The notes under the pieces were generated by a model that was given only the letters and a program-made list of their open reading frames with translations, was not told where the DNA came from and made no database searches. Below are positions 22,519-28,728 of a DNA stretch of 34,622 nucleotides, in pieces. The DNA comes from Curvibacter sp. (GTDB lineage: Bacteria > Pseudomonadota > Gammaproteobacteria > Burkholderiales > Burkholderiaceae_C): the NCBI GenBank assembly GCA_020248905.1, contig JADCGR010000027.1, positions 1 through 34,622 of the forward strand. The letters run 5' to 3'. The translations under genes and the position numbers were made by a program. Numbering within the stretch: the stretch's first letter is position 1; every line of letters starts with the position of its first letter.

Positions 22519-23439
22519 ATGGAGTCCTACGCGCTGCTGCTTGCCGCCACGCTCAACGCCGGCACCGTGCTGGCACTGGCCGCGCTGGGCCTGCTGATCA
22601 ACGAAAAGGCTGGCATCGTCAACCTGGGCGCCGAAGGCATGATGCTATGCGCGGCGATTGCCGGCTTTGCCGTCGTGGTGCACACGGGTAACGACTGGCT
22701 GGGTTTCGCGGCTGGCATGGGCGCGGGTGCCCTGCTCGCGGCCGTCTTCGGCTGGCTGGTGATCTGGCTGGGCACCAACGCCTACGCCACGGGCCTGGCG
22801 CTCAGTCTCTTCGGTGCAGGCTTTTCCGCTTTCGCGGGCATCGCCTATGTGCAGGCCAAGCTGCCCGAGCGCACGCAATGGGTCGTGCCGTTGCTGGGAG
22901 ACATTCCCCTGCTCGGCCCGGCGCTGTTTCGGCAGCATCCGCTGGTGTATCTCACGGTCGCGCTGACGGTCGGGCTCATCGTCTGGCTCGGGCGCAGCCG
23001 CAGCGGGCTGATACTGCGTGCCGTGGGCGAATCGCCCGAGTCCGCGCATGCCCTGGGCTATCCGGTGCGGCGTATCCGCTTCGCAGCCGTGCTGGCTGGT
23101 GGTGCGCTGTGCGGTTTGGCCGGTGCCTACCTGTCGGTGATCTACACCCCGCTGTGGGTGGAGGGCATGGTCGCCGGCAAGGGCTGGATCGCGCTGGCCC
23201 TTACCACCTTTGCCACCTGGCGGCCCGCGCGCGTGCTGCTGGGCGCCTACCTGTTCGGTGGCGTCACGATGCTGCAGTTCCACCTGCAAAGCAGCGGGGT
23301 GGCGCTGGCCAGCCAGTTCCTGAACATGTTGCCTTACCTGGCAACGATCGTGGTGCTGGCACTGATCTCGCGTAACCCGGCGTGGATACGCTTGAACATG
23401 CCCGCATCCCTGGGCAGGACTTTCACCCCCGGCGCCTGA
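22519..23439 (+). CDS. ABC transporter permease, nucleoside/purine importer, subunit 2
   Basis: The second membrane subunit has 306 residues and about eight hydrophobic helices. It begins SYALLLAATLNAGTVLALAA and contains LLINEKAGIVNLGAEGMMLC, the family stretch corresponding to the NIGAEGQ region of subunit 1. The cytoplasmic coupling region AVGESPESAHALGYPVRRIR is clear. AAGGAGGG lies about seven bases before the ATG, so translation starts independently in spite of the long spacer. It precedes the BMP lipoprotein gene by 42 bases. Confidence 0.95.
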   Translation: MESYALLLAATLNAGTVLALAALGLLINEKAGIVNLGAEGMMLCAAIAGFAVVVHTGNDWLGFAAGMGAGALLAAVFGWLVIWLGTNAYATGLALSLFGAGFSAFAGIAYVQAKLPERTQWVVPLLGDIPLLGPALFRQHPLVYLTVALTVGLIVWLGRSRSGLILRAVGESPESAHALGYPVRRIRFAAVLAGGALCGLAGAYLSVIYTPLWVEGMVAGKGWIALALTTFATWRPARVLLGAYLFGGVTMLQFHLQSSGVALASQFLNMLPYLATIVVLALISRNPAWIRLNMPASLGRTFTPGA

Positions 23440-23481
23440 CGCTCATAATCGCAACGTTTTTTCAACCCACCGAGGAAAGCC

Positions 23482-24621
23482 ATGACCGACCTGACCAAGC
23501 GCCGCCTGTTCCAGGCAGCTGCCATTTCCACCATCGCCGCCGCCGCCCTGATCGGCTGCGGCAAGAAGGACGAGCCCGCCACAACGCCCGCACCTGCCGC
23601 CCCGCCCAAGGCCGCGCCCCTGAAGATCGCCTTTGCCTACGTCGGCCCCGTCGGCGACGGCGGCTGGACCTTCGCGCACGACAACGGTCGCAAGGCCATC
23701 GAGAAGGAGTTTGGCGATAAGGTCGTCACCAGCTTCGTCGAGAAGGTGCCGGAAAGTGCCGACGCCGAGCGCGTGATCCGTGACATGGCCAGCCAGGGCA
23801 ACACCCTGATCTTCGGCACCACCTTCGGCTACATGGAGCCCATGCTCAAGGTCGCCACCGACTTCAAGAACGTGAAGTTCGAGCACGCCACCGGCTACAA
23901 GACCGCCGAGAACCTGCGCACCTACGACAGCCGCACCTACGAAGGCGCCTACATGGCCGGCGTGATCGCAGGCAAGATGACCAAGAGCAACACCTTGGGC
24001 GTGGTGGGCTCGATCCCGATCCCCGAGGTGATCCGCAACATCAACAGCTTCACCATGGGTGCCCAGTCGGTCAACCCCAAGATCAAGACCAAGGTGGTTT
24101 GGGTGGGCGAGTGGTTCAACCCGCCGAAGGAAACCGAGGCCGCCACCGCCCTGATCAACGGCGGCGCCGACGTGCTGATGCAGAACACCGACTCGTCCGC
24201 CGTGCTGCAGACAGCCGAGAAGATGGGCAAGCGCGCCTTCGGCTGGGACAGCGACATGACGGCCTACGGCCCCAAGGCGCACCTGGGTTCGGCCATCATC
24301 AATTGGGGTCCGTACTACATCAAGTCCACGCGCGAGGCGCTGGAAGGCAAGTGGAGCACAGGCCAGGCCTGGTGGGGCGTGAAGGAAGGCGCAATCGACA
24401 TGGTGTCGGTGGCCGCTGACGTTCCCGAAGAGACGAAGAAGCGCGTGGACGAAATCCGCGCGGGCCTCAAAGCCGGCACCTTCGCCATCTGGAAGGGCCC
24501 CATCGTCGGCCAGGACGGCAAGGAAGTGCTGAAGAAGGACGAAGTCGCCGACGACAAGTTCCTCGGCGGCGTGAACTTCTACGTCAAGGGCGTGGAAGGC
24601 AAGATCCCCGGGGGCAAGTAA
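23482..24621 (+). CDS. BMP-family ABC transporter substrate-binding lipoprotein
   Basis: The 379-residue protein is of the BmpA/Med family, whose members bind nucleosides or purines. The N-terminus [20 protein letters not shown] is followed by GCGKKDE, giving a lipobox (LIGC) and a twin-arginine-like RR motif. A proline/alanine linker precedes the mature domain, which shows [20 protein letters not shown], then [17 protein letters not shown] and [26 protein letters not shown] lies just upstream of the ATG. Codon bias is very strong (almost all C/G third positions), suggesting high expression. A strong terminator follows, so it is the last gene of the importer operon. Confidence 0.95.
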
Positions 24622-24640
24622 GGCCGCCCGGCGAGTGCGA

Positions 24641-24668
24641 GGGGCTGCTTCGGCAGCCCCTTTTTTTT
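24641..24668 (+). terminator. Rho-independent terminator of the importer operon
   Basis: GGGGCTGC and GCAGCCCC form a perfect 8-bp stem around a TTCG tetraloop, followed by eight T residues. It begins 20 bases after the BMP protein stop and separates the operon from the deaminase gene. Confidence 0.93.
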
Positions 24669-24688
24669 CAGACGTATTAGGACGCACC

Positions 24689-25729
24689 ATGCCATCGTTC
24701 CCCGACGTCCCGGCAGCGCGCCTGCCCGGTCTGCTGCGCAGCATGCCCAAGGCCGAGCTGCACATGCACATTGAGGGCTCGCTGGAGCCCGAGCTGATCT
24801 TTGCGCTGGCGCATCGCAATGGCCTCACCCTGCCCTACCCCAGCGTGGAGTCGCTGCGCGCGGCCTATGCCTTCACCGACCTTCAGAGTTTCCTGGACAT
24901 CTACTACGCTGGCGCCGGTGTGCTACAGACCGAGCAGGATTTTTATGACATGGGCATGGCTTATCTGCGACGCGCCGCCGCCGACCATGTGCTGCGCACG
25001 GAAATGTTCTTTGATCCGCAGACCCACACCGCGCGCGGCGTGACCATGGACACGGTCATCCGCGGCCTGCACCGCGCCTGCGTCGATGGCGCAGCGCTCG
25101 GCGTGAGCGCGGAGATCATCCTGTGCTTTCTGCGCCATCTCAGCGAACGGGAAGCCTTCGAGACGCTGGAGCAGGCGCTGCCATTTCGAGATCTGTTCAT
25201 TGGCGTGGGGCTCGACTCCAGCGAACTGGGCCATCCGCCCGAAAAGTTTGCCCGTGTGTTCGCGCGCTGCCGCGAACTGGGCCTGCACCTCGTGGCCCAT
25301 GCGGGCGAGGAAGGGCCCCCGGCCTATGTGTGGAGCGCGCTTGATGTGCTCAAGGTCGAGCGCATCGACCACGGCGTACAAAGCGTGCACGACGCCGCGC
25401 TCATGCGCCGCCTGGCGCAGGACCGCATCCCGCTCACCGTCTGCCCGCTGAGCAACCTCAGGCTCTGCGTTTTCCCCAGCCTGCAGGCCCACAACCTGGG
25501 CGCGCTGCTGGACGCCGGGCTGGTCGCCACCGTCAACTCCGACGACCCGGCTTACTTCGGCGGCTACGTCAACGACAACTACACGCAGACCTTCGCGGCC
25601 ACCGGGCTCAACGCCCGCCAGGCCTACACGCTGGCGCGCAACAGTTTCGAGGCGAGTTTTGCGCAGGCGTCGCAGAAGCGGCACTGGATTGCTCAGCTCG
25701 ACGCAGCCTTCGCGCAGGCGGCGTTGTAA
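24689..25729 (+). CDS. Adenine deaminase of the adenosine deaminase family
   Basis: The enzyme deaminates adenine to hypoxanthine (or adenosine to inosine). The 346-residue sequence has the zinc ligands in LPKAELHxH-like form ([20 protein letters not shown]), the catalytic-region [27 protein letters not shown], and [17 protein letters not shown]. The [10 protein letters not shown] and [12 protein letters not shown] stretches are closer to the adenine-specific subgroup (as in Pseudomonas aeruginosa PA0148) than to classical adenosine deaminase, so adenine is the preferred reading. AGGA lies seven bases before the ATG. Hypoxanthine from this reaction would feed xanthine dehydrogenase. It follows the importer terminator and may have its own promoter. 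Confidence 0.9.
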
Positions 25730-25851
25730 GCCACAACCAATTGCCCACCCCGAACATCAGCGCACAAGCGGAGCAACCCATCACTTGGAATCGCACAGAT
25801 CAGCCCAAAAGAAGATGAGGCCGATTTATTTGCACAAGATAGTTAGGTGTG

Positions 25852-25870
25852 ATACATTTTTATAATGTAT
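25852..25870 (+). promoter_or_regulatory. Palindrome over a -10 box, upstream of the small ORF
   Basis: ATACATT and AATGTAT (7-bp arms, 5-base spacer) overlap a perfect -10 hexamer TATAAT at 25861-25866. The DNA here is AT-rich against a GC-rich background. No good -35 hexamer at 16-18 bases is visible; an activator or extended contact may be needed. A repressor binding the palindrome would block the promoter. The start codon of the small ORF follows 28 bases after the hexamer. Confidence 0.55.
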
Positions 25871-25893
25871 AGCGTCAACGCTAAGGATTCTCC

Positions 25894-26121
25894 ATGAGAG
25901 ACAAGCGCAGTCGTTTTATTGAGCTGGGTGAAGCGCGGGTCACAAAGGCGACCCAGATGCTCAGGCTCATTGGCAATTTGGCGAACTCAAACAACTACGA
26001 GTATTCGGCAGAAGACGCTCAAAAGATCTTCACGGCTTTGGACGCCGAAATGAAGCTATTGAAAGCCAAGTTCCAGACCGCCTTGAGCAAGCGGCCGAAG
26101 GACGAATTCAAGCTCGGTTAA
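25894..26121 (+). CDS. Small conserved-type hypothetical protein, first gene of the methylase locus
   Basis: The 75-residue product is charged and helical, with MRDKRSRFIELGEARVTKAT at its start and a C-terminal lysine-rich KFQTALSKRPKDEFKLG. No catalytic motif is visible, and the function is unknown. It resembles small proteins I have seen annotated beside GHKL ATPase and C5-methylase genes; that link is from memory. It is intact and has an AT-rich promoter region with a palindrome. GGGAGAG after its stop serves the next reading frame 12 bases on, so the two were one operon. Confidence 0.7.
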   Translation: MRDKRSRFIELGEARVTKATQMLRLIGNLANSNNYEYSAEDAQKIFTALDAEMKLLKAKFQTALSKRPKDEFKLG

Positions 26122-26133
26122 GGGAGAGATGAA

Positions 26134-27438
26134 ATGGGATGGTTGTTTCACGCCAGCGACCCCATGGGAGGCGCTGCAGGCGAAGCGTTTGCGAACACAC
26201 TGAAATCTCCGGGCATGCTGCCCGAGCACGTCCTGGCCCGCTAAGCGATTCAGAACTCGGTGGACGCCGGCACTGGCGCGAAGGTGGAGGTCCGCTTCCG
26301 CGCGAGCGTCGTGAAGGGCGCCAAGAAGACGGCCTTCGTGCAGGCAGCCGACCTTGGCCGCATCGCCGAGCGCTCCAACGAGCTGATGCTCTCCGGCGCC
26401 AACTGCCTCTCCACCCTCAACAAGCCGCAGAAGGAGCTCTGCCTGCTATACGTTGAGGACTACAACGCGGTGGGCCTGTCTGGCGATCCACACGATAAGG
26501 ACTCAAACTTCTATCGCCTGCTGCTGTCCCTGGGCGACCGCTCCAAATCGCGCACCGCGCAGGGCAGCACCGGTGGCTCCTATGCGCTTGCGGGCGAAAT
26601 CGGCGATATCGACTTATTCTTGGCGGGGCCGCCCTGCCAAGGCCACTCAAACCTCAACAACAAGACTCGTCGGGAGGATCCCCGGAACCTACTGTACGTC
26701 ACGGCCGTGGCCCTGGGCGTCGGCCTGCAGGCAAAGTCCATCGTCATTGAGAACGTCCCGGATGTCGTCAATGACAAGAGCGACGTCGTAAATATTGCCA
26801 AAGCGCTACTTAAGGCGGCCGGCTATGCTTGGATTGACAGCGGCATCCTGGCTGCCGATCACTTGGGTGGAGCGCAGACTCGCAAGCGCTATTTCCTCGT
26901 AGCCTCACGCGTCGCCGAGCCCAAGGCGGAGCTGTCGATCCAGGAGGTGGCAAAGGGCTTGAAATACGCTGCCCGGCCACTGAGCTGGGCGATAGGGGAT
27001 CTACTGAGCGACCCATCGCAAGAACCCAAGACAAGCATCATGGACACGACGCCGACGCTCTCGGCCGACAACCTTGCCCGGATACACCACCTCTTTGATA
27101 ACGATCTCTACGATCTTCCGAACGAGGTACGCCCTGATTGCCACAAGGACGGTCACACCTACCCTTCAGTCTACGGTCGCTTGTGGTGGGACAAACCCTC
27201 CCAAACAATTACGACGGGGTTCTTGACGCCCGGACGAGGTCGCTATATCCATCCGCTTCGGCCGCGAGTGATTTCGCCTCACGAAGCGGCTCGTATCCAG
27301 TCATTCCCGGACAACTTCTCATTCGTGGTCGATCCAGCCAATCCGCCAAGCCGCACAGGACTACAGAAATGGATAGGAGATGCGGTGCCGCCCTTACTTG
27401 GCTACGCTGCAGCATTGCCGCTAATGGTTCGGATGTAG
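26134..27438 (+). pseudogene. Fusion relic: GHKL ATPase N-terminus joined to C5-cytosine methylase C-terminus
   Basis: One frame runs through this region. It begins MGWLFHASDPMGGAAGEAFA and reaches a TAA at 26242-26244. It continues AIQNSVDAG (the N-box of a GHKL/MutL-type ATPase, here without the usual preceding acidic residue because of the stop) and YVEDYNAVGLSG (the second ATP-binding motif). It breaks off at GGSYA where the glycine-rich lid should be. From about 26590 it is a C5-cytosine methylase: LFLAGPPCQGHSNLNN with the catalytic cysteine, IENVPDV, AQTRKRYFLVAS, PSQTITTGFLTPGRGRYIHP and IGDAVPPLLGYA. The methylase lacks motif I (the AdoMet loop) and its N-terminal third. A single deletion joining two neighbouring genes explains this. 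Both activities should be lost; a GTG at 26260 could start a 392-residue fused product. Confidence 0.82.
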
Positions 27439-27544
27439 TCTATAAACGCAGAGACCCCACAGTCTTTGCAACGAACTGGACCCATACGCGGAGTGTGTCT
27501 GGCGGTTATCGGTCTCAGATGTGACAGATCAATTAGGTCTGCCA

Positions 27545-27937
27545 TCAAGCGAGCGCCATTTCCTGTTCTGACTGCCGCAGCGGGTACGGACGGATGAGCA
27601 CCTCTGCAGGTAGCTTCAAGCCATCGGCCAGCTTACGTATCATTTCGAGCGTGAGCGGGCGGGTGCGGTTCAGGATGTCCGACACCCGGCCACGTGGCCC
27701 GATATACGGCTCCAGGTCCTTGCGCGTCAGGCTCCGCGCTTCCATGACGTGGCCAAGGAAGTCGATGGGGTCGGGGTCTGGCACCGGGTAATGCTCGCGC
27801 TCATATTGCTCTATCAGCAGGGTCAGCACATCCAGACGGTCGGCCGCCGTTGATTTGGCGGGTGCATCCCACAGGCGGTCAACCTCCGCCAGTGCCGCCC
27901 GGTAGTCTTTCTTGGTGCGAATCAGCTTGAGTTCCAT
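27545..27937 (-). CDS. higA: HigA-type antitoxin with XRE helix-turn-helix
   Basis: The 130-residue antitoxin neutralises HigB and represses the operon. A helical N-terminal half is followed by the DNA-binding segment DFLGHVMEARSLTRKDLEPY and then GRVSDILNRTRPLTLEMIRK, typical of the long HigA group. The ATG at 27937 is chosen because AAGGAG lies six bases upstream; the ATG five codons earlier has no site. It starts 11 bases after the higB stop, in toxin-first order as usual for higBA. A matching operator lies in front of higB. Confidence 0.92.
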   Translation of the reverse strand: MELKLIRTKKDYRAALAEVDRLWDAPAKSTAADRLDVLTLLIEQYEREHYPVPDPDPIDFLGHVMEARSLTRKDLEPYIGPRGRVSDILNRTRPLTLEMIRKLADGLKLPAEVLIRPYPLRQSEQEMALA

Positions 27938-27948
27938 ATCGGGCTCCT

Positions 27949-28242
27949 TCAAATGGTCTCAACATCGATCTTGTCGTACTGGCGATGCGTGCCAACGAAG
28001 CGGACGTACATCAAGCCCTTGTCGTAGCGGACCGCCACCACCAGTCGATAGTCATTGCCCTTGATGTTGAACACCACCCGGTTGTTCCGGGTGAAACTGG
28101 CATTCCCGTAGGCGGCCTTGATGTCTGCCGGGGTCTTCCAGCTTGCCCGGCCTGCCAGGGCGTACCAGGACCGCAGCGGGGTTTCGGCATCAGGATGAGC
28201 CTGCCAGAACGTCCGCAAGGTGGAAAGGGCGACGACGCGCAC
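27949..28242 (-). CDS. higB: HigB-type toxin (RelE superfamily mRNA interferase)
   Basis: The toxin cleaves mRNA on the ribosome. The sequence RVVALSTLRTFWQAHPDAET, then LRSWYALAGRASWKTPADIK and NRVVFNIKGNDYRLVVAVRY with RFVGTHRQYDKIDVETI at the end, is a complete member of the HigB toxin family. The start is placed at GTG 28242, giving 97 residues and the family's normal beginning. An ATG at 28257 lies upstream of the expected transcription start (see the promoter entry), so it is unlikely to be used. No frameshift or missing residue is seen, so the module looks active. Confidence 0.92.
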   Translation of the reverse strand: MRVVALSTLRTFWQAHPDAETPLRSWYALAGRASWKTPADIKAAYGNASFTRNNRVVFNIKGNDYRLVVAVRYDKGLMYVRFVGTHRQYDKIDVETI

Positions 28243-28247
28243 GGCGC

Positions 28248-28276
28248 AATGTAGCATGATACCGTTTTGGTATCAA
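28248..28276 (-). promoter_or_regulatory. higBA promoter with operator in the spacer
   Basis: On the minus strand, TTGATA (28276-28271) and TACATT (28253-28248) are separated by exactly 17 bases. The palindrome TGATACC-N5-GGTATCA (28257-28275) overlaps the -35 box and spacer, the expected place for HigA autorepression. Transcription would begin about six to seven bases after the -10 box, at or next to GTG 28242, so the mRNA is probably leaderless. Confidence 0.72.
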
Positions 28277-28338
28277 CCGCAAAGGCTTGAGCTTTGCGCC
28301 CATGCGCCTCCCGGGCGCTGCGGCCTGGGGTATGCGCC

Positions 28339-28728
28339 TCAACCCATGCGCGCCAGCAGCGTCTCCATGTCTTTCATCATGGCCGTGAGTTCGGCCTTCT
28401 TCTCTTCGCCAGGCGCGAGGCGTGACTGCAGTTCCTGCTCCATGAAGCAGACGGTCATGCGCAGATAGGTGCTGTCCAGCGCCTTGCGCACGGCCGCGAA
28501 CTGCTGGCCGATCTTGAGGCAATGTTCGCCGTCTTCGATCATGCGCTGGATGCCGCGCAGCTGCCCTTCGGCCCGGCGCAGGCGGTTGAGGATCTCGCTG
28601 CGCGCGCCTTCGTCGTGCAGCACGCTGGGGTCATGCGCGGGGACCGGTAAGGGCTTGCAGGGGAACGCCAGGTTTCGGGCTTGCGGGAGTTGCCGGCCTG
28701 AACTGGAGCGCGGTGCGGTCTCGCTCAT
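28339..28728 (-). CDS. CsoR/RcnR/CstR-family transcriptional repressor
   Basis: This all-helical repressor family senses copper, nickel, formaldehyde or sulfane sulfur. Residues from about 42 match the family: SEILNRLRRAEGQLRGIQRM, IEDGEHCLKIGQQFAAVRKA, then LRMTVCFMEQEL. Two cysteines 24 residues apart (in EHCLKI and MTVCFM) are the likely sensing residues. The CsoR histidine-cysteine pair is not obvious, so persulfide sensing (CstR-like) is possible. The first 40 or so residues are an extra low-complexity extension and the true start may be further in. It is the last gene of the RND operon and probably binds the operator found in that promoter. Confidence 0.88.
   Translation of the reverse strand: MSETAPRSSSGRQLPQARNLAFPCKPLPVPAHDPSVLHDEGARSEILNRLRRAEGQLRGIQRMIEDGEHCLKIGQQFAAVRKALDSTYLRMTVCFMEQELQSRLAPGEEKKAELTAMMKDMETLLARMG

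Follow-up and report, generated by a model that had tools for sequence, protein, structure and literature searches.

The sequence analysed here is a stretch of 34,622 nucleotides from a Curvibacter sp. (contig JADCGR010000027.1 of assembly GCA_020248905.1), which we call the window. Between positions 26134 and 27438 it carries an in-frame fusion of ATPase residues 1 to about 150 with the C-terminal 284 residues of a C5-cytosine methylase. The frame that starts at the ATG at 26134 is closed after 36 codons by a TAA and is open again from 26245 to the stop ending at 27438 (Table 1). The original prediction had described this interrupted fusion and named three motifs in it, and we see both the frames and the motifs where it had placed them (the N-box AIQNSVDAG, VEDYNAVGLSG and PPCQG).

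The methylase half matches PF00145 from 26581 on in a Pfam search. The match covers positions 58-317 of the 324 in the profile, and since it begins only at position 58 the N-terminal part of the methylase with the S-adenosylmethionine (AdoMet) motif I is gone, as had been predicted. The same half matches the PADLOC models DruM2 (8e-76) and MTase_II (9.3e-70). The piece of ATPase from 26245 to 26580 has no Pfam family at E 0.1 and matches the PADLOC profile PDC-M33A. It keeps the first two GHKL-like motifs along with part of the third; roughly the first quarter of the A gene is left.

Table 1. Features of the fused frame and of the insert that holds it, in window coordinates (aa, amino acids).
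Feature	Position	Strand	Evidence or remark
Small first gene of the operon, 75 aa, intact	25894..26121	+	No known family
ATPase residues 1-36, upstream of the stop	26134..26241	+	100% identical to L003, 97% to L006
In-frame TAA stop in the N-box region	26242..26244	+	Sense codon there in 15/15 aligned relatives
ATPase continuation to residue ~150: N-box, second motif, first residues of motif III	26245..26583	+	96% L003, 92% L006 over 112 aa; PDC-M33A 5.8e-8
Deletion junction	26582..26584	+	Base-by-base comparison with L003 and L006
C5-cytosine methylase tail, motif IV to end, without motif I	26584..27438	+	PF00145 7.5e-30; 92% L003, 93% L006
Insert, read as foreign, holding the relic and the HigBA pair	25730..28338	.	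Between adenosine-deaminase gene (ends 25729) and CsoR-type gene (28339-28728, minus strand)
Helix-turn-helix antitoxin	27545-27952	-	PF01381 5.5e-5; second cargo of the insert
HigB-type toxin	27949-28257	-	PF09907 1.7e-30; second cargo of the insert

To find intact relatives, genome contigs were scanned with the 112-residue ATPase piece, which yielded 19 loci. The two closest are L003, from a Rhodanobacteraceae metagenome-assembled genome (MAG; 96% identity), and L006, from Roseateles toxinivorans (92%). Both hold the intact operon that the original prediction had anticipated, with the genes in the same order on one strand: a small protein of 75 aa, an ATPase of 600 aa, two further genes that we call G2 (308-309 aa) and G3 (246 aa), and a C5 methylase of 434 aa, which in L003 matches PF00145 from position 2. 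The small open reading frame (ORF) at 25894 had been proposed as the first gene of the operon, and it is found in that position in both, with 98.7% identity to L003 and 100% to L006. The two halves of the window frame match two different genes of this one operon at 96% (ATPase) and 92% (methylase) protein identity for L003 and at 92% and 93% for L006, and therefore the fusion is not a product of chance.

Base-by-base comparison shows that the window corresponds to the operon minus one contiguous stretch of 3472 bases relative to L003 and 3475 relative to L006, in agreement with the predicted deletion joining the two outer genes. Homology to the ATPase gene ends at 26582-26584 and homology to the methylase gene starts at 26584 (L003), about one base being shared at the ends; this lies within a few bases of the GGSYA boundary proposed earlier. 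The deletion took out everything in the ATPase gene from motif III onward, all of G2 and G3, and the N-terminal 150 residues of the methylase. The missing stretch is also absent elsewhere in the genome, where a DNA search with L003:10300-15130 found only the two window pieces, and region 25730-27545 is present once in the 3,221,145 bases. Most likely a single deletion of about 3.5 kb joined the start of the ATPase to the end of the methylase.

An assembly or sequencing fault would give the same picture if the living strain still had the whole operon and one or both of the stop and the junction were errors. The genome is in 65 contigs and the inactivation looks very recent, as such a fault would have it. 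Misjoins, however, usually occur at repeats and the ends here share about one base; the missing stretch is on no other contig of an assembly rated 99.87% complete, and two separate defects would be needed together. We consider a fault highly unlikely.

The age of the inactivation was estimated from window-private codon changes, defined as differences confined to the window at codons on which L003 and L006 agree. The ratio of synonymous to nonsynonymous changes was 11/0 in the small ORF (75 codons), 17/1 in the ATPase (147 codons, stop codon excluded) and 66/9 in the methylase tail (283 codons). The pooled ratio of 94/10 compares with 100/15 for the changes unique to one of the two sisters, L003 and L006 (Fisher p 0.52), while random change would give about 2.6 nonsynonymous changes per synonymous one. 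Because the window-private changes are as biased towards synonymous ones as those in both sisters, the inactivation appears to be recent, and at most about 1-5% of the branch, varying with the constraint assumed, would have been free of selection.

This bias also bears on the possibility that the fusion is a working protein, made from the GTG at 26260 or by read-through of the stop and serving as a DNA-binding or regulatory factor. The frame is long and open (392 codons from GTG 26260), its conserved residues are intact and most window-private changes are synonymous. The like bias in both sisters, however, can reflect selection before the deletion. The GTG has no upstream Shine-Dalgarno sequence by eye and sits inside the N-box; the ATPase is left without the rest of motif III, motif IV and an ExxxH motif, and the methylase without motif I. 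ATPase matches were found in 1/60 genomes of relatives (the window's own), 9/369 of the class, 8/399 of the family and 8/399 of the order, these sets overlapping. The frames found have 604-674 codons, besides the window's 438, one of 122 (L016 contig) and one of 352 cut by a contig end, and among the genomes searched there was no second such fusion, let alone many homologues sharing it, the other frames not having been scanned individually for a methylase domain. We thus found no support for the useful fused protein that had been offered as an alternative, and a working fusion is very unlikely. The relic is very probably dead; the fused frame has inherited its conserved appearance, which does not count as evidence for a working fusion.

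The insert of the window measures 2.6 kb between the adenosine-deaminase and CsoR-type genes. In congeners the deaminase gene lies beside the CsoR-type gene in 5 of 16 loci, and in three of these (G019, G014 and G010) the two genes are only 51, 22 and 25 unaligned bases apart. The spacers of the other two, G016 and G006, are longer, at about 580 and 320 bases. The remaining 11 loci showed no deaminase match in the stretch read, and 5 of the 16 stretches were shorter than 5 kb. Neither the small ORF nor HigA nor HigB matched at any of the 16 congener loci around the CsoR-type gene (E 1e-4), and the ATPase matched in 0/25 congeners. As the site is near-empty in three congeners and these genes are unmatched in the congeners, the operon is best read as acquired cargo. 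The contrast in G+C is weak (0.50-0.65 inside the insert in 400-base windows versus 0.62-0.68 in 23000-25799). We treat the HigBA pair as cargo separate from the operon; a region of the same genome (G000:C44:45157-45392) is 67% identical to part of the pair. The G016 spacer of about 580 bases at the same site (L030 / L086) holds other content, so the spot between the two genes may be a small insertion hot spot.

PF00145 matches the genome twice, in the window tail and in a fragment at C11:241621-241845 (profile positions 2-68) with no similarity to the methylase of the window operon. This fragment is the N-terminal stub of a different, second broken C5 methylase (L105 5008-5388). By eye the stub adjoins a HipA-like frame in what looks like a HipBA pair. 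The assembly gave no complete PF00145 methylase.

Across the relatives, ATPase, G2, G3 and methylase are each one recognisable open frame in 10 of the 19 loci (L003, L005, L006, L007, L009, L010, L011, L012, L015 and L018). Two others (L014, L021) have the other genes, but BLASTP with the L003 protein recognised no G2 in them; L004 and L020 lie near a contig end, and in L017 no methylase was recognised in the 1.5 kb remaining on the contig. L008 has a single internal stop in G3, and L013 has its ATPase split in two frames and a partial methylase. The last two, L016 and L019, have collapsed. L003 has in addition a Vsr gene (PF03852, 2.4e-30). A Vsr frame was recognised in 11 of the 19 loci, the fragment in L019 excluded, and stands upstream of the ATPase in L009, L010 and L012. 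In L006, the sequence that follows the methylase from 14669 onward resembles by eye the initial residues of a vsr gene that has decayed.

G3 of L003 belongs to DUF6339 (PF19866, 1.1e-9), and the L003 ATPase and G2 have no Pfam family. The original prediction had referred to restriction-modification-like operons with a C5 methylase and Z1-type proteins, and here a correction is due: no helicase matched among the operon proteins of L003, the sole locus scanned for one. Apart from Vsr, the scanned L003 genes gave no match to a type II restriction nuclease.

The ATPase had been predicted to be of the GHKL/MutL type. The four GHKL-like motifs, taken here to be the N-box, D-x-x-x-x-G, GxGK and GT, are largely conserved in the aligned rows, with exceptions such as GL for GT in several distant rows. 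Profile tests did not confirm GHKL membership. The HATPase profile matched none of 15 ATPase members at E 10, nor any of 7 distant relatives, and comparison with 31 aligned MutL sequences matched up no more than the N-box, with 11% probability.

Among the closest known systems is the PADLOC candidate PDC-M33. All 15 ATPases of relatives that were compared match PDC-M33A (best 1.3e-26), and G3 of L003 matches PDC-M33C (1.1e-5). Plasmids of Priestia and Planococcus carry PDC-M33 loci (A, B and C genes) that begin with the same small gene, and profile comparison with these loci gave probabilities of 98.9% for the ATPase, 96.3% for G3 and 99.6% for the small protein. The order of small gene, ATPase, middle gene and DUF6339 gene is common to both. 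G2 occupies the position of the PDC-M33B gene in the relatives but is without detectable kinship to it (0/12 G2 proteins match in PADLOC, and the profile comparison gave a probability of 0.1%); both G2 and the DUF6339 gene are deleted in the window. Another difference is that in L003 the methylase directly follows G3 on the same strand. The Priestia and Planococcus loci lie near a C5 methylase gene and a gene for a nuclease of the MutH/Sau3AI or AlwI type.

An ExxxH motif is present in 38/38 aligned ATPase rows that cover the site, corresponding to 34 distinct loci of which four were fetched twice. The alignment has 41 rows; L013 and L020 lack coverage, the window row has lost the site, and loci such as L099, L016, L019 and L068 were not recovered and are uncounted. 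In the portions of Iyer, Abhiman and Aravind 2008 (PMC2292703) used here, ExxxH is given as the motif of paraMORC2, described as mainly cyanobacterial and Gram-positive. The present family resembles the paraMORC2 ATPases of restriction-modification operons described in those portions both in this motif and in its neighbourhood of cytosine methylase and Vsr, and differs from them in that no helicase matched in the L003 operon and the close clade is proteobacterial. The HEF_HK / Response_reg_2 operons, as the portions used of Bellieny-Rabelo et al. 2021 (PMC8011034) present them, likewise have a paraMORC-related ATPase beside a C5 methylase and Vsr, but neither HEF_HK nor Response_reg_2 matched among the L003 proteins. 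The match of the methylase tail to DruM2 and MTase_II recalls the PADLOC models for type II C5 methylases and DruM. The eight scanned proteins of L003 matched no other Druantia model, and the window methylase is without motif I.

The window is not the only relic. For the close clade we required an ATPase with at least about 58% identity to L003; ten such loci were seen, of which L004 and L056 are cut by contig ends. Among the remaining eight (L003, L005, L006, L007, L008, L016, L019 and the window), four have all genes open, L008 has one stop and three show large losses. L019, from Paucibacter, retains the small ORF's second half and the ATPase to residue ~66, then runs into the Vsr gene, about 4.86 kb being absent relative to L003. 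In L016, from a Burkholderiales MAG, a short piece is missing at the start of the ATPase and matching ends at residue ~108. These three relics have differing breakpoints, and in the window and L019 the effector genes and the methylase function were lost together.

The 75-aa leader protein had no match above the Pfam cut-off (one weak match, E 0.09) and none in PADLOC or NCBIfam. It occurs in 4 of 274 genomes of the class, the window's own included. Fourteen plasmid records matched it, and in all six regions read the small gene precedes a large gene. In three of them (Priestia, Planococcus and Deinococcus) the large gene is an ATPase of this family, accompanied by a DUF6339-type gene, and in the other three (Ensifer, Agrobacterium and Dinoroseobacter) other large proteins follow. 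That homologues head other operons too, together with an intact ORF that has gathered synonymous changes and no nonsynonymous one, would fit a small ORF still functional by itself, for instance as a regulator or immunity protein kept after the loss. The same bias is, however, expected if the loss is recent, and in the broken L019 operon the small ORF lacks its first half. We think retained function unlikely.

Taken together, these results make it very likely that the locus is a recent pseudogene, an operon acquired and then collapsed by one deletion of about 3.47 kb. In this account an ancestor would have gained an operon of small protein, paraMORC2-type ATPase (PDC-M33A-like), G2, DUF6339 protein G3 and C5 methylase between the adenosine-deaminase and CsoR-type genes. 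A single deletion with almost no homology at its ends would then have joined the remains of ATPase and methylase in frame, and the stop in the N-box region would have arisen separately, before or after it. Several points weigh against this account. The deletion and the stop were read from assembled sequence compared with the nearest relatives, which belong to other genera, and such slight further decay is also what an assembly or sequencing fault would leave. The GHKL membership suggested by the motifs of the ATPase could not be shown by profile, nor could kinship of G2 to PDC-M33B, and the restriction-like function of the intact operon is read from its gene content.

On that gene content, we hypothesize that the intact operon provides a restriction-like defence in which the methylase would mark self DNA, the ATPase with G2 and G3 would act on unmarked DNA, and Vsr, where present, would repair deaminated methylcytosine. 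Joint removal of effector and methylase would then be a safe route of loss, because loss of the methylase alone would expose the host. It is conceivable, though short of probable, that the parent operon is its own type of mobile methylation-linked defence system, in which the leader protein is essential and whose loss comes about through large deletions removing effector and methylase at once.

The relic itself is ordinary; the interest lies in the parent operon, a defence candidate yet to be characterised, and in its small leader protein. None of the papers searched names DUF6339 or PDC-M33. The relic clearly illustrates how a defence-type operon gained by horizontal transfer was switched off, apparently in one step. 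Through it we are led to a small conserved leader protein described by none of the family libraries used, and to an intact parent operon, as in Roseateles toxinivorans, that can be tested in the laboratory and that resembles the untested candidate anti-phage system PDC-M33.
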